From Pseudobdellovibrionaceae bacterium (GTDB lineage Bacteria > Bdellovibrionota > Bdellovibrionia > Bdellovibrionales > Bdellovibrionaceae), in assembly GCA_022843825.1 (NCBI GenBank), contig JALHMX010000013.1, positions 1 through 64,000 on the forward strand: DNA of 64,000 bases. The letters are read 5' to 3'. The first letter of the stretch is position 1. Each line of letters starts with the position of its first letter. Position numbers and translations under genes: made by a program. Under the pieces are notes generated by a model, which had not been told where the DNA came from, ran no database searches, and worked only from the letters and a program-made list of their open reading frames with translations. Positions 823-8,880 of this stretch are shown here, piece after piece.

Positions 823-2211
823 TTATTGGTTAATTTGAACCTTTTGATCTACTAATGATATAAGCTTTAGGCGATCTATCGGTTTTGAAAAGTGGTCTGT
901 GAAGCCTACTCTTAAGCAGCGCTCGCGCTCTTCTTTCAATGCATGAGCCGTAAGCGCAATAATGGGTTTATCGTAACCTAACTCTCTTAAACGACGGGTC
1001 GCTTCATATCCATCAACATAGGGCATCTGGATATCCATCAAAACCACATTATAGTTCCCTGAAAGAGCTTTTTCTATGCCCTCGGCCCCATTGTCTGCAA
1101 ATTCAACTTGCGCTCCTGCCAGGCCCAAAAAAAGTCCAATAACTGTTTGATTGTCAGGGGCGTCATCTACCACTAAAATATTAACATCTTTAAGAATCTC
1201 TTTTTCATTATGGAACGCCGCACGGGCTATTTCACTATTTTCAGTAAATTGAAAAGATCCCACACGAGATACGCTTTCTTTTATTTGTGCTTCAATAGTT
1301 ATTTCAAAGGTACTTCCGACGCCTAGCTTAGAGTGCAGGAGCTGCACATCCCCACCCAGTGCGCGGGCCAATTGACGCGATAACGTCAACCCTAGGCCTG
1401 TTCCCCCAAATTTACGTGTCATAGAGCTATCAACCTGTGCGAATGGTTGAAAAAGTCGCTCAAGATGAGCGTCATCTATGCCCACTCCTGTATCCGTCAC
1501 TTTTATTTTCAATTGGCCTTTACCGTATTCAAATGTAGAATCGGTCCAGCATATAAAAACTTTTACGGAACCTTTCTCAGTAAACTTTATCGCGTTACCG
1601 ACCACGTTCATAATAATTTGTCTGATATGAACTGGATCTGTCATCATCACTGTTGGAACTTTTGATTCAAAAACAAATTTAAAATCCAAACCTTTTCTTT
1701 CTGTTTGAAAATATAAAAGCGATTTAGTTTCATTTATTAGACTAACAACATCACATTCTAGGTTTTCAATATGAAGATGACCTGCTTCTAGCTTAGAAAT
1801 ATCTAAAATTTCATCGATCAATGCTAGTAGCTGTTTACCATTACGGTGAATAGTCGATATACACTGCATACGCTCTTCGACTGTCTGATTAGGGTTCTGC
1901 AATAGCTCTGTGAAGCCTAAAATTGCACTCATCGGTGTTCGAATTTCATGACTAATGTTTGCTAAAAAATGAGTTTTGGCTAGATTGGCCTTAACCACTT
2001 CTTGTGTAGCTTCAATTAAGTTATTTGCCATGTTTTCATTGTGTTCGATGATATCATTAATAACTTCGCCAATTTCAGCAATAATTCCTTCTTGGCCAAT
2101 CGGCAAACGTGCACTAAAATCTCCGCGCCGCAAAGCTTTAACAGTATACAATAAATGTCGAAGTTGTTCATCGATGTTTACTGATTTAAAATCCCCAATG
2201 GCTTGTTGCAT
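823..2211 (-). CDS. Soluble hybrid histidine kinase (HAMP-like, HisKA, HATPase, REC)
   Basis: Hybrid sensor kinase of 462 residues without transmembrane segments. The order is a HAMP-like stretch (about residues 20-70, RRGDFSARLP), a HisKA dimerisation helix with phospho-accepting His88 in ISHEIRTP, a HATPase domain with N box (NVVGNAIKFTEKG), G1 (DTGVGID) and G2 (GGTGLGL), and a C-terminal receiver with VVDD, the phosphorylatable Asp in LMDIQMP and the Lys in FSKPID. No PAS, GAF or periplasmic sensor is visible, so the input is probably a protein partner or a cytoplasmic state. The start is the ATG at 2211, with GGGGAG ten bases upstream; the frame also opens at a TTG 18 bases earlier. It is divergent from the S30AE/REC/HPt operon and is the obvious kinase for it. 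Confidence 0.9.
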   Translation of the reverse strand: MQQAIGDFKSVNIDEQLRHLLYTVKALRRGDFSARLPIGQEGIIAEIGEVINDIIEHNENMANNLIEATQEVVKANLAKTHFLANISHEIRTPMSAILGFTELLQNPNQTVEERMQCISTIHRNGKQLLALIDEILDISKLEAGHLHIENLECDVVSLINETKSLLYFQTERKGLDFKFVFESKVPTVMMTDPVHIRQIIMNVVGNAIKFTEKGSVKVFICWTDSTFEYGKGQLKIKVTDTGVGIDDAHLERLFQPFAQVDSSMTRKFGGTGLGLTLSRQLARALGGDVQLLHSKLGVGSTFEITIEAQIKESVSRVGSFQFTENSEIARAAFHNEKEILKDVNILVVDDAPDNQTVIGLFLGLAGAQVEFADNGAEGIEKALSGNYNVVLMDIQMPYVDGYEATRRLRELGYDKPIIALTAHALKEERERCLRVGFTDHFSKPIDRLKLISLVDQKVQINQ

Positions 2212-2422
2212 TTCAAAAATTCTCCCCAAAAATATTTATCGAAAAAACTGAAACTTTGTCATGAAATTAAATAATTCTAAAAGCTATTGTGGATATTTGC
2301 CCCAAGTTTTTACAGGACAATGGTCTTAAAGTTTAGCGCAAAGTGTTTAACTTTTTTTCACTGCTATATATCTAAAGTCTGTATTTGGTTTTTCCTCTGC
2401 TTTTAGAGCTGCTTTTCACATT

Positions 2423-2450
2423 TTGGTAACATTATTCCTACGATTATAAG
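2423..2450 (+). promoter_or_regulatory. Predicted sigma-70-type promoter of the HPF/phosphorelay operon
   Basis: TTGGTA and TATAAG are separated by 16 bases, with the -10 matching the consensus at five of six positions. The leader to the first ATG at 2485 would be about 28 bases and carries a strong AAGGAGG. The 273-base gap between the kinase and this operon holds no other clear element; I could not fix a minus-strand promoter for the kinase. Confidence 0.45.
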
Positions 2451-2484
2451 AGTAAGAAAACGCAACTCGCTAAGGAGGCAAAAA

Positions 2485-2862
2485 ATGAGAACTAACATTA
2501 TATTCAGAGGCTTTGAAGGATTTGAGCATCTTCGCGACTATGTACAAGACTGCTTAGACAGCTCTTTAGGGAAGCTCAATTTAAATAGTGTAGATGAAAT
2601 TAAGGTAATTGTGGATACTACCCATGGTCGCCGATTGGGACATCCGCCTCAGTTTTTGTGTGAAACTGTGATGAAAACAAAGAATCGCAATTTTTTCGCA
2701 AAAAAAACAGATGCCAGTTTTCATCACAGCATAAAAAAGTGTACACGAGCTATTGCCAAAACATATGTTTCTTCGACACGCTCGCTACGCGATAAACGAA
2801 GAGGCATTGATCGCAAACAAAGCGTCTACGATTTGCATTCGTTAGAGGCTACAGTAGCTTAA
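2485..2862 (+). CDS. HPF/RaiA-like (S30AE) ribosome hibernation protein
   Basis: A 125-residue basic protein resembling short hibernation promoting factors, which bind the small ribosomal subunit and help form idle ribosomes. The layout fits S30AE: a first strand (NIIFRG), helix 1 (EHLRDYVQDCLDSSLGKL), strands (EIKVIVDT, FLCETVMK), then helix 2 (FHHSIKKCTRAIAKTYVSS). A Lys/Arg-rich extension (about residues 90-115) resembles the basic tail of HPF. Sequence similarity to E. coli HPF is weak, so this is a fold-level assignment. A strong AAGGAGG precedes the ATG. It is first in an operon with an S30AE-REC fusion, an OmpR regulator and an HPt protein, an unusual setting because hpf usually sits beside rpoN. 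Confidence 0.7.
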   Translation: MRTNIIFRGFEGFEHLRDYVQDCLDSSLGKLNLNSVDEIKVIVDTTHGRRLGHPPQFLCETVMKTKNRNFFAKKTDASFHHSIKKCTRAIAKTYVSSTRSLRDKRRGIDRKQSVYDLHSLEATVA

Positions 2863-2910
2863 AGCAAAATAATTTTTGTATTTAAAGTTTAAAAATAGGA
2901 GGGGCCTATT

Positions 2911-3693
2911 ATGCTACCGCGTAATATATTAAGTGTCGAAAATAAAAATCAAGCACAGGCTTCGATTGAAGCTCATATCAGGTCAGAACTAGCGCCATAT
3001 TTAGACGACTCAGTCATTAAAATTGAGTTGATTCAAGAGTCGGAAAGATGGACGGCGGATGTCGTAGTTGATTTTAATCGCGAAACCAAGGCTTCGCGCC
3101 AGACTGATGATAATTTCCAAAGACTTGTTCAGCAAATTATAAAAGATCTAAAAGCACAGTTTGAATTAACAAATACAAATATTAAAAACGAGCTCTTTAT
3201 GTTCGATCATCAGCAAGAGTACGATTACTACACCGAAACACTAGCCTCGCCGCCAACTCAGCTAAAAAAATCAAACCTTCGCGTTTTAGTCATAGACGAT
3301 GATCCTACGGCTGCATTAATTTTAGAAAAAAGTTTGCAGTCCATGGGTTGTAATGTCGACTGCTTGAACGATCCCGTTAAAGCCATCGACCAACTATTGC
3401 TAAATGATTATGATCTGCTTATTCTAGACTGGTGTTTACCTTACATGAGTGGTCATGAGTTTTTAAAACAGATTGATTCTAAGCTGACCATTAAAAATTT
3501 GGGGAACTTTAACCCTAAAATAATACCGCTGGTCGTATGTTCGAGTAAAAATTCAGATGAGATTAATTTACCGCTTGTCTCAAATTTTTTATTTTGTCAG
3601 TATTGGAACAAACAGTTGCCATTTTCGACGGTGATTAGCTCAATAGAGACGGCTATAAATAGTGCAAGTAATTATAAAACAAGGGCGGCATGA
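2911..3693 (+). CDS. S30AE-like domain fused to a receiver (REC) domain
   Basis: A 260-residue two-domain protein. Residues about 1-85 look like an S30AE/HPF fold: a helix (ASIEAHIRSELAPYL), strands (IKIELIQ, TADVVVDF) and ETKASRQTDDNFQRLVQQI, which lines up well with the last strand and helix of E. coli HPF. After a linker (about 90-120), a receiver spans about 122-250 with acidic pair Asp129/Asp130, phospho-acceptor Asp173 in LILDW, Ser211/212 and the switch Lys234 in WNKQLP. A GGAGGGGC Shine-Dalgarno precedes the ATG. Its stop overlaps the next gene by four bases (ATGA), so the two are translationally coupled. I know of no characterised protein with this architecture. Inference: phosphorylation controls ribosome binding or pairing with the upstream HPF-like protein. 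Confidence 0.75.
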   Translation: MLPRNILSVENKNQAQASIEAHIRSELAPYLDDSVIKIELIQESERWTADVVVDFNRETKASRQTDDNFQRLVQQIIKDLKAQFELTNTNIKNELFMFDHQQEYDYYTETLASPPTQLKKSNLRVLVIDDDPTAALILEKSLQSMGCNVDCLNDPVKAIDQLLLNDYDLLILDWCLPYMSGHEFLKQIDSKLTIKNLGNFNPKIIPLVVCSSKNSDEINLPLVSNFLFCQYWNKQLPFSTVISSIETAINSASNYKTRAA

Positions 3694-4394
3694 AGAAATA
3701 CAAGATCCTCGCTGTAGAAGACGAACCAACGACTCAAGCTCTTCTACAGCGATGCTTGGCTTTTTCGTACGATTTAGTCTTGGTACCAAGCTTAGAGCGC
3801 GCAAAAGAGATTTTGAATCACTTTAAACCTGATTTGGTTTTACTAGATCTGTACTTGCCTGATGGAAATGGTTTTGATTTTTTTAGCTTTCTTAAAGATC
3901 GTACACAAAGCAGCCGTACGCCTGTCATTTTTTTAACCTTAGAATCAGATATTAAAGTGAAAGTAAAAAGCTTCTCTGCTGGGGCCTATGATTACATTAC
4001 TAAGCCGTTTGATAATACTGAGTTGATGGCGCGAATTGATGCCCACTGTGCAAGATCAGCGGAAGTCTCCTCGGCTTTTTATACACCCGAAATTTTTGCC
4101 GATTTACTTTTTAATCGCGAATCTCTTCAGGTGCATCGCATTGATGGAAATGGCCAAAAAGAACTTGTTTCCTTGTCTCCAACTGAGTTTAAACTTTTAC
4201 AATGTTTTATGAGTCACATCGGAAAAACCTTAAGTCGTGAACAAATTGCAAAAGAAGTATGGAATAAGTCTCACTTTCAAAGTCGTACAATTGATCGACA
4301 TATTAGTTCCCTGAGAAAAAAGCTGGGCCCAACAGGGGCCTATTTAAAAACGATTAGCCATGGCGGCTATCTTCTAAGTTTAGAGGAGAGATAA
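3690..4394 (+). CDS. OmpR/PhoB-family response regulator
   Basis: A 234-residue transcriptional regulator. The N-terminal receiver has Glu10/Asp11/Glu12, phospho-acceptor Asp53 in LVLLDLYLPDG, Thr in IFLTLES and the Lys in ITKPFD. The C-terminal winged helix (about 130-230) shows the family pattern LSPTEFKLL, then RTIDRHISSLRKKLG and a terminal hairpin (TISHGGYLL). The start overlaps the preceding stop by four bases. With the HPt gene directly downstream and no orthodox kinase in the operon, the phosphoryl group probably arrives through the HPt from the divergent hybrid kinase. Its target promoters are unknown; autoregulation is plausible but no operator repeats could be picked out. Confidence 0.92.
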   Translation: MKKYKILAVEDEPTTQALLQRCLAFSYDLVLVPSLERAKEILNHFKPDLVLLDLYLPDGNGFDFFSFLKDRTQSSRTPVIFLTLESDIKVKVKSFSAGAYDYITKPFDNTELMARIDAHCARSAEVSSAFYTPEIFADLLFNRESLQVHRIDGNGQKELVSLSPTEFKLLQCFMSHIGKTLSREQIAKEVWNKSHFQSRTIDRHISSLRKKLGPTGAYLKTISHGGYLLSLEER

Positions 4395-4395
4395 T

Positions 4396-4761
4396 ATGAA
4401 AGCCCCTATCAAAAATTTTTCCCAAGTTGATGAAGTAAAACTGCAAGAACTAATATCTATCGATCCCAGCGGTGGACTGCTTCGACAGTTAACTACGATT
4501 TTTAATTCAGAAATGCAAAATGCCTTTATAATGATGAAGGAAGAGTATAATAAAAATAACTTTGACTCGATTTCTAAGCTGGCTCACAGACTTCGCTCTA
4601 CAAGCTTAAACCTGGGCATGGTTCGACTCGGAGAAATTTTTAAACAACTTGAGTACTTAGATTTTACGCCTGAAAACAAGAGCGTGTTCCAAGATTTGGT
4701 ACACTACGGAGAGGTCGAGCGCGATATTGCCTGTGAACAGCTGCGAACTATTACTGGGTAA
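4396..4761 (+). CDS. Stand-alone histidine phosphotransfer (HPt) protein
   Basis: A 121-residue all-helical protein. The motif LAHRLRSTSLNLGMVRLG matches the HPt core, with His64 as the phosphorylated residue and the following Ser/Gly-containing helix packing against it. HPt proteins shuttle phosphoryl groups between receiver domains. The gene starts one base after the response-regulator stop and ends the operon. Its presence fits the hybrid kinase across the divergent promoter, whose terminal receiver needs an HPt to pass phosphate on to Asp53 of the regulator and Asp173 of the S30AE-REC protein. Only one base separates its stop from the convergent DUF2147 gene. Confidence 0.85.
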   Translation: MKAPIKNFSQVDEVKLQELISIDPSGGLLRQLTTIFNSEMQNAFIMMKEEYNKNNFDSISKLAHRLRSTSLNLGMVRLGEIFKQLEYLDFTPENKSVFQDLVHYGEVERDIACEQLRTITG

Positions 4762-6917: not shown

Positions 6918-7361
6918 CTACTGTTTTTCAACAGCAACTTGAATTGCGGCTTCAAAACCCTCAGCATATTTAATTGTTGCCTTGTGGGTTCCTAAAACTT
7001 TAATAGGCTCTTCCAAATGAATATCTCGCTTGTCCACAGAATATCCCATTTTATCTAAAGCCTTAGAAATGTCAGAAGTCGTCACGGTACCAAAAAGCTT
7101 ATCGTTGTCGCCAGCATTAAGCTTAAAAGTAACCGTTTTACCTTTGATTTGGTTTAAAAACTCTTGGCGCTCTGTTAGGGCCTTTTTCTTTTTTGATTCA
7201 GCTACGCGCTTTAGGTGATTCCACTCATTAACGCGTTTTTCAGTAGCTTCAATTGCAAGCTTACGAGGAAATAATAAATTTCTCGCGAACCCTAAAGATA
7301 CGTTTACTAAATCTCCTACTTTTCCTAAATCTTTTACATCTTTTTGTAATATTACTTTCAT
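6918..7361 (-). CDS. rplI: Ribosomal protein bL9
   Basis: Large-subunit ribosomal protein L9, 147 residues, the usual length. The N-terminal rRNA-binding domain is clear ([20 protein letters not shown], then [17 protein letters not shown]), followed by the long connecting helix (residues about 41-75, rich in Lys and Glu) and the C-terminal domain ([15 protein letters not shown]). It is the last gene of the rpsF-DUF2232-rplI group, seven bases after the DUF2232 stop, and is followed by a strong terminator. Confidence 0.98.
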
Positions 7362-7368
7362 AAAATCC

Positions 7369-8256
7369 TCATTCTTTTAATTTTTTTCGCATGCTTTTTC
7401 TAAAATTCATCCAATAGTCTAAGAAACCAACCACGCTCATGGCGGGCCCCATCCATCCTAAAATTAACAAATAAATTGCTGTTTTTGTAAAGAACCCCAC
7501 GCGGTAGGCCCTTGTCATAAACTCAACAACCGATACTCCCTGAAAAAAGAAAATCACAAAGGTAAATATCGACACGTTGGCTGCAATTACTTTTAAATGC
7601 GGAACTCCAAAATCAACTAAGCTAAACAAGAAACCAAACAGAGAAAACCATATAAAAAGATCTGGCACTCGAAACTCTATCCATTTTATGCTGGTCGGCA
7701 CTTTCTCTCGTCGAAGCTGAAATAGTTTTGAAATTTTAGATTCAAAAATGAAACCTAATGCTAATGCGATAACTAGTATTGAAACAAATACCCCGGGAAG
7801 ATATTGAAGAATGTTTAGTTTTAAAAATTCTTCCTCAGTCATAATATTTTTCATGGCGGCCTGAAGAGGGTCCATAAAAGTTTTGACTAATTCGCTACTT
7901 GCAATAGATCCGTTTGTAATTACGTATACACTGACGACACCAAATAGTAGTCCTGCCAATAGCGCAATCACTCCTGTTTTTTTCCAGCTCGTTCCACGTT
8001 TTTCTAATTCACTGTAAAAGCCTAAAGTCATCCAAACGGCTCCTACATAAATTGATGCTATGGAAAGATTAAAAACAAATAGTGTTGCTACCAAAGAAAT
8101 TCCTACGCACCAAAACACAGCTGATCTTGCGGTGGTTGCTAACACCCGCACGAAAGGCGCCCCAAAAAAAGAAAACATAACTAAAACCGCAGCCGTGGCT
8201 GCGGCTAAAGAAAGTGTTTTATTTATAGAGTTATTTTGGCGTTGTAATGTGGTCAT
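7369..8256 (-). CDS. DUF2232 family integral membrane protein
   Basis: A 295-residue membrane protein with roughly seven or eight hydrophobic segments (for example [56 protein letters not shown] and [20 protein letters not shown]) and a strongly basic C-terminus. The gene order rpsF-DUF2232-rplI is conserved in several lineages, and the YybS/DUF2232 family is typical of this slot. Function is unknown; the repeated linkage to ribosomal protein genes suggests co-expression rather than a demonstrated ribosomal role. The gene lies between rpsF (45 bases away) and rplI (7 bases away). Confidence 0.75.
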
Positions 8257-8301
8257 AAGCCCAACGAATTGTTGTTAAAATTAGATTTCTCTAAATAACG
8301 A

Positions 8302-8751
8302 CTATTCTTCGTCTCTTTCCATTCGAGCTTGTTGAGCCGCCTGACGTCGCATTTGCGCTTTTGCTTCGCGCTCTTTTTCACGTTGGACAGACTCAGCTAA
8401 ACCTTTTTTGAAAGCTTCCATATGTTTCGACACAGGAACACGCTCATCTAAGCTTGAATGCATAAAGCGTAAAACTTTGTCGTTAATACGCATAGTACGC
8501 TCAAGCTCCATGATTGCTTGTGGGTTTGATTCGAACACAGAGTGAAAATAGATCGCTTTTCTAAGCTTTCCAATAGGGTTAGCTAAACTGCGCTTTCCCC
8601 AAGTTTCTACACTATGAACGTTACCATTGTAGCTAGTGATGGTTGTTTTGTTTTTTTTGAATAGCTCTTTTTGCTCTTCAACAGTCGTATCTGGATGAAC
8701 CAAGATGACAACTTCGTACGGACGCTTTACGTCTGCTTTTTTAAGTTCCAT
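8302..8751 (-). CDS. rpsF: Ribosomal protein bS6
   Basis: Small-subunit ribosomal protein S6, 149 residues. The core is typical: RPYEVVILVHPDTT, WGKRSLANPIGKLRKAIYF, then ELERTMRINDKVLRFM. A charged tail of about 45 residues (Lys, Glu, Arg, Gln) extends the C-terminus, as in several Proteobacteria. I start at the ATG at 8751, preceded by AAGGG; a TTG ten codons upstream adds a stretch outside the family. S6 normally pairs with S18 on the platform, yet rpsR, usually next in this operon, is absent from the window. Confidence 0.96.
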   Translation of the reverse strand: MELKKADVKRPYEVVILVHPDTTVEEQKELFKKNKTTITSYNGNVHSVETWGKRSLANPIGKLRKAIYFHSVFESNPQAIMELERTMRINDKVLRFMHSSLDERVPVSKHMEAFKKGLAESVQREKEREAKAQMRRQAAQQARMERDEE

Positions 8752-8880
8752 GAATATCCCTTCGGTTATAAGCCCCGCCAATTATTGAGGGAGCAAGGAT
8801 GACTTTATTGTGTTAAATGGTGTAGCAGGTTTAAGAGGGTTATACAAGACTGGACAACTCTTAAGTAGTAATTCTATGAT

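Follow-up and report, generated by a model that had tools for sequence, protein, structure and literature searches.

This analysis points to an apparently autoregulated phosphorelay that is encoded together with proteins of the ribosome hibernation type in a Pseudobdellovibrionaceae bacterium. The locus was found at positions 823-4761 of the window, by which we mean the whole stretch of 64,000 nucleotides that was analysed, on contig 13 of the host genome (G000; 2.4 Mb, 99.5% complete, 33 contigs). It comprises five genes, namely a hybrid kinase gene on the minus strand and, divergent from it, a tight four-gene operon on the plus strand that encodes, in this order, a short HPF-like protein (S30), a fusion of an S30AE-like domain with a receiver (S30REC), an OmpR-type regulator and a stand-alone HPt (Table 1). 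We consider it somewhat probable (roughly 0.55), on the sequence, that this phosphorelay sets the expression of S30 and phosphorylates S30REC.

All five genes were found where an earlier interpretation of the same DNA, the sequence-only reading, had placed them. The tight coupling that it described was also recovered: the S30REC stop and the regulator start overlap as ATGA at 3690-3693, the HPt gene starts 1 nt past the regulator stop, and strong Shine-Dalgarno sequences precede the S30 and S30REC genes. The parts for the four relay steps that it had recognised are present in the one locus as Pfam matches for the kinase, the receiver, the HPt and the terminal receivers, with an ATP-binding domain and every phospho-residue of kinase, receivers, HPt and regulator in place. 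The kinase matches HisKA (73 bits), HATPase_c (91 bits) and Response_reg (89 bits), and its start is a TTG at 2229, with an in-frame ATG at 2211. It had been described as lacking both a sensor and a membrane part. The latter holds, as no transmembrane (TM)-like segment was seen in the whole protein, but residues 21-72 form a HAMP domain, in which 68% of the positions agree with the first HAMP of poly-HAMP/GAF hybrid kinases from this family. The protein is thus cytosolic and does possess an input domain, namely the HAMP. The regulator belongs to the OmpR/PhoB class (Response_reg, 83.5 bits; Trans_reg_C, 74.4 bits). Its closest NCBIfam model is PhoB (154.7 bits, below the cut-off of 296.2), and its Asp53 is conserved among orthologs. 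The HPt, one of four HPt matches in the whole genome, scores 24.7 bits against PF01627 (cut-off 24.6). The motif HRLRST/S, common to three orthologs, suggests the conserved His64 (codon 4585-4587) as the phospho-acceptor. In the proposed mechanism, the kinase would pass phosphate from His to Asp of its own receiver, from where it would travel through the lone HPt to two terminal receivers, those of the OmpR-type regulator and of S30REC.

The association is conserved in other genomes, as shown by a neighbourhood search of the kind that the sequence-only reading had suggested. In a genome of the same genus (G007), the module consists of S30, a REC gene, an OmpR-type regulator (58%), an HPt (42%) and a hybrid kinase with six TM-like segments; two G007 contigs end inside the same REC gene, from which their join is inferred. 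The same genome carries an additional full-length fusion, alone on another contig (contig 100). In a genome of another genus (G087), S30REC is found with a regulator (39-40%), an HPt (43%) and a hybrid kinase. The regulators of the window, G007 and G087 form one clade with a support of 99/99. Clear HPt orthologs occur in only these three of the 141 genomes of the order, with 202-222 bits against 72 for the next best match, and in all three they adjoin the REC or S30REC gene. These orthologous clusters indicate that the arrangement is not due to chance. A third genus (G040) shows the layout of the window, in which a hybrid kinase gene is transcribed away from those of HPt, regulator and S30REC. 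The G040 regulator was considered as an ortholog of that of the window and rejected, since it falls outside the supported clade in the tree; this cluster is similar, not orthologous.

A shared upstream motif supports transcriptional control by the module, which the sequence-only reading had ascribed to the OmpR-type protein. The motif, TTTTCACATTTTGGTAACA (consensus TTTTCACANNTTSGTWACA), is termed operator-like because it overlaps a promoter-like TTCACA-N18-TACGAT (2415-2444). Its half-sites, TTCACA and GTAACA, are 11 bp apart, a spacing that may suit a dimer of the OmpR/PhoB type. The window and G007 have CTGYTTTTCACAYTTTSGTAACA in common before their S30 genes, at an equal distance from the start codon, with 23 of 28 aligned positions in agreement, compared with a maximum of 20 in 25 shuffles. 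The consensus precedes four module genes, those of the window operon, the G007 operon, the solo S30REC of G007 and the S30REC of G087, and starts 71-79 bp from the ATG at these promoters. From composition, about 0.003 exact copies would be expected per genome. Exact copies were found in 3 of the 12 genomes searched (G000, G007, G087), which are exactly the carriers of the module, at the four module promoters and at one promoter of a small secreted protein in G007. With at most one mismatch, the copy upstream of S30 is the only one in the host genome. Beyond the motif, no further direct repeats above chance were found in the upstream region. The OmpR-type regulator would thus constitute the first output of the relay, binding at 2413-2431 and controlling its own operon and hence the dose of S30. 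Separately, we observed the motif in reversed orientation before orthologous secreted-protein genes in G007 (L212:680-698, exact) and in another genome, G011 (L213:2293-2311, 2 mismatches). The small protein behind it (88 aa, lysine-rich, without Pfam match) is a possible further target.

With regard to S30, the match to PF02482 (Ribosomal_S30AE) reaches 27.8 bits, above the cut-off of 23.7. The AlphaFold2 (AF2) model obtained with four sequences (pLDDT 79.7) adopts a beta-alpha-beta-beta-beta-alpha fold, which is the published topology of the HPF N-terminal domain (PMC6177447), and a Foldseek comparison with the PDB returned hibernation factors (HPF/YfiA/pY chains) as all of the top 38 matches. 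Structure prediction, which the sequence-only reading had put forward as a check, indicates that S30 is a genuine S30AE family protein. It carries a net charge of +9 (pI 9.8), is expected as a short HPF paralog in the 30S decoding region and, at 125 aa, shows no second domain in Pfam and no C-terminal dimerisation domain. Its identity is about 37-42% to the nearest homologs and 20-28% to S30AE proteins from other genera. The S30 gene is carried by three relatives, found with the S30 alignment, which are metagenome-assembled genomes labelled Bdellovibrio sp. and Pseudobdellovibrionaceae. The host genome encodes five S30AE proteins, a striking number for 2.4 Mb. The other copies are located on contigs C5, C11 and C19, the two C5 copies (141971-144058) being separated by about 1.5 kb, and the window copy is the only S30AE gene within a phosphorelay operon.

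The receiver of S30REC matches Response_reg with 49.9 bits and carries the acid pair, the phospho-Asp173, the Ser and Lys234; the acid pair, the phospho-Asp and the Lys are invariant in all four fusions (window, G007, G087, G040). The N-terminal part is more divergent. An alternative is that it has no relation to S30AE and is a small alpha/beta domain of another kind (KH, BolA or CDF-C-terminal-like), which would leave a single S30AE protein in the module. This fits the absence of any Pfam S30AE match in its approximately 95 aa and the single-sequence AF2 model (pLDDT 72), a generic alpha/beta fold for which the 50 PDB matches listed include no HPF, but profile comparisons make this alternative very unlikely. 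A profile of the N-termini of the four full-length fusions (A3; window, G007 contig 100, G087, G040) scored 30.2 in hhalign against 14 S30AE proteins, well above the maximum of 19.5 over 200 column-shuffled controls, and its best match among PDB sequences was an HPF (E 0.095), with HPFs making up six of the best eight. Once stand-alone S30AE-like relatives had been added to these N-termini (A12), HPFs occupied all of the first 11 ranks among PDB sequences, with a best E of 0.0011. In addition, a hidden Markov model built from the stand-alone relatives matches both the fusion domain of G040 (1.9e-13) and the C11 S30AE protein of the host genome (2.1e-6). The profile of the stand-alone relatives by themselves (A6) matches the PDB weakly (E 0.91, below keratin in rank), so it is hhalign and the joined profile that carry the S30AE relationship. 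Taken together, the comparisons support an S30AE-like domain at the N-terminus of S30REC. The two S30AE-type proteins of the sequence-only reading are supported for S30 by its modelled fold and for the fusion by its profile, while the single-sequence model of the latter does not decide the matter. A search of genome contigs with the S30REC protein as query gave no relatives, and a plasmid search gave no match.

The pI of the fused domain is 4.9 in the window, 5.8 in G040, 7.9 in G007 and 9.3 in G087. As the window domain is acidic, unlike S30, HPF-style binding of rRNA is doubtful. S30REC could nevertheless be a phospho-switched ribosome factor, in which the receiver takes the place of the long-HPF dimerisation domain and phosphorylation would bring about dimerisation and the formation or release of 100S ribosomes. 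Receivers commonly dimerise upon phosphorylation, and the S30AE profile of S30REC matches HPFs. The domain order also matches that of long HPFs, which comprise an S30AE N-terminal domain, a linker and a C-terminal dimerisation domain (PMC6177447). This possibility appears unlikely, given that only the G087 domain is basic, that S30REC lacks the basic tail of S30 and that the domain is missing in some orthologs. The previous suggestion that phosphorylation decides between dimerisation and ribosome binding fits poorly for related reasons: S30 lacks the dimerisation domain of long HPFs, which makes such a switch possible but less likely, and the fused domain is acidic and absent in two orthologs.

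For the second output of the proposed phosphorelay, we favour S30REC acting as a response regulator with a degenerate, in the window acidic, S30AE output domain. Its phosphorylation would most likely alter a protein-protein contact, be it with S30, a further HPF paralog or the pool bound to ribosomes, and holding or releasing S30 or another HPF is favoured over direct rRNA binding. This preference follows from the S30AE domain itself, which in most cases is not basic and which can be absent or encoded by a gene of its own. A more far-reaching and tentative idea is that S30REC proteins constitute a new class of response regulators, in which receiver phosphorylation might switch an S30AE-like domain that captures or releases HPF-type factors or ribosomes. 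Bacteria of the Bdellovibrio family would then have a fast, direct two-component control of hibernation parallel to transcriptional control.

Related clusters were found beyond the orthologous modules. In G003, G008, G017 and G085, stand-alone S30AE-like genes adjoin REC and HPt genes and an NtrC-type regulator; the G017 cluster was left out of profile building. In G086, a poly-HAMP kinase gene is accompanied by HPt, REC and S30AE-like genes, and G040 also has REC, S30AE-like, OmpR-type and S30AE genes in a row. On G007 contig 233 and G040 contig 8, an S30AE-like/REC protein is accompanied by REC, HPt and a divergent OmpR-type gene, its S30AE part being weak (E 0.0013 and 31.9 bits). Within 1.5 kb of the high-scoring S30AE-like loci, an HPt gene is present in 8/9 and a receiver in 9/9, whereas any two-component domain occurs at 2/30 low-scoring S30AE loci, a count with a bias, since it was the receivers that had drawn attention to several of the clusters. 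A cleaner comparison is restricted to homologs retrieved solely by their similarity to S30: two-component genes lie next to all three close ones (hybrid kinase genes in G003 and G008, a REC gene in G007), compared with 1 of 26 distant S30AE loci (Fisher p 0.001, with lineages that are not independent, G003 and G008 being close relatives). As related circuits recur in relatives, the link between S30AE proteins and phosphorelays looks real. Two observations concern this family of genes. At L050:2004-3170 and L220:4517-5209, S30AE-like/receiver proteins with a weak S30AE part, one of them with a TM segment, are each neighboured by genes for a lone REC, an HPt and a divergently encoded OmpR-type protein. 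In most of the Bdellovibrio-like g6 genomes looked at (L113, L117, L118), the related S30AE gene is located beside BON-domain and divergent LysR-type genes, a separate conserved pairing.

Several findings weigh against the proposed autoregulated phosphorelay. The G007 module is split over two contigs, and their join is inferred. The operon receivers of the G007 and G011 orthologs have no fused S30AE domain and a separate S30 gene is missing from the G087 operon, so each of the two S30AE parts can be dispensed with. The G040 regulator stands outside the clade of the other three, and the kinase input varies from HAMP in the window to 6-8 TM-like segments in G007 and G087. The conservation of the motif could partly reflect the function of the -35/-10-like promoter that it overlaps. 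As for the sequence-only reading, it had held that REC/HPt genes occurring without S30AE genes would speak against it. The module HPt stays beside a receiver in every carrier (3 of 3), but some related REC and HPt clusters have no S30AE gene at all. One example is located on contig C3 of the host genome (L057:4841-7356), where an HPt/REC/NtrC-type cluster has a CsbD stress gene close by. The C3 receiver groups with the receivers of the relatives' S30AE-like clusters in a tree that is poorly resolved (long branches) and was used only for this grouping.

The relay may also only set the transcription of the operon, with S30 as one of several stress-made HPF paralogs and S30REC as a phosphate sink or a regulator of an unrelated target, its fused fold being a relic. 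A motif confined, at up to one mismatch, to the module's own promoter in the host genome would be consistent with this, as would the five S30AE proteins of that genome and a fused domain that is acidic in the window and missing from the G007 and G011 orthologs. It is less easily reconciled with the recurrent fusion or adjacency of S30AE-like domains to receivers in several gene clusters, or with G007, where the operon receiver lacks the domain and a separate full-length fusion is kept under the same motif, which argues that the S30AE-like domain is needed. We regard this explanation as possible, though not probable.

Table 1. Features of the phosphorelay locus (window positions)
Feature	Position	Strand	Basis or remark
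Cytosolic hybrid histidine kinase, HAMP-HisKA-HATPase-REC, 468 aa	823..2229	-	Pfam and HAMP identity
Kinase HAMP domain	~2014-2169	-	
Kinase HisKA domain	~1780-1980	-	
Kinase HATPase domain	~1288-1638	-	
Kinase REC domain	~850-1179	-	
Operator-like motif	2413..2431	+	72 bp upstream of S30 start
S30, short basic S30AE/HPF-like protein, 125 aa, pI 9.8	2485..2862	+	Pfam, AF2, Foldseek, pI
S30REC, S30AE-like/receiver fusion, 260 aa	2911..3693	+	REC by Pfam, S30AE by profile
S30REC divergent acidic S30AE-like domain	~2923-3192	+	
S30REC linker motif EYDxYT		+	conserved
S30REC receiver	~3283-3660	+	
PhoB/OmpR-type response regulator, REC and winged helix, 234 aa	3690..4394	+	Pfam, NCBIfam
Stand-alone HPt, 121 aa	4396..4761	+	Pfam PF01627

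A few genes downstream (window 6918-8781), the genes of ribosomal proteins L9 and S6 flank a membrane protein gene, which is probably ordinary.

If the proposed reading is correct, environmental sensing would be connected directly to the ribosome by a dedicated phosphorelay that is encoded alongside an HPF paralog and has a receiver fused to an S30AE-like domain, and S30AE would join the list of response-regulator output domains. The group includes obligate predators that alternate between non-growing attack cells and growth, for which fast control of ribosome silencing would be obviously useful, a putative link that the sequence-only reading had also drawn. The idea lends itself to a direct test, as this one family has S30AE-like proteins in three or more kinds of phosphorelay cluster and the module is marked by a short operator-like motif. 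As the sequence-only reading had supposed, no described case of S30AE/HPF linked to a receiver, a phosphorelay or Bdellovibrio was found in the open literature, the coverage of which is incomplete, making this weak evidence of novelty.

Like known hybrid-kinase/HPt phosphorelays (Rcs, ArcB/TorS type; CckA-ChpT; Sln1-Ypd1-Ssk1/Skn7), the module combines a hybrid kinase with a lone HPt and a pair of terminal response regulators, of which one is DNA-binding, and its layout resembles Sln1-Ypd1 branching. In contrast to these, it has an S30AE-like output on one terminal receiver and an HPF-like gene in the operon. S30 is similar to short HPF/RaiA (YfiA) proteins (PF02482) in fold, size and basic character, and its model matches chloroplast pY, HPF and RaiA, but it is encoded inside a phosphorelay operon and has diverged, as reflected in its low PF02482 score. 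S30REC has the same order as long HPFs, with an N-terminal S30AE(-like) domain, a linker and a second domain; the latter, however, is a phosphorylatable receiver, and the N-terminal domain of the window protein lacks the basic charge. Known controls of hibernation include ppGpp and cAMP acting on RMF/HPF, YwlG sequestering HPF, and RpoS and LqsR acting on Legionella factors (PMC6177447, PMC11102965, PMC12977618). These likewise place hibernation factors under a signalling system, but with neither a dedicated phosphorelay encoded alongside the factors nor a receiver fusion. The relay parts and the HPF parts are each of known kinds, whereas what appears new is the way they are combined, together with an output domain of the S30AE-like type.

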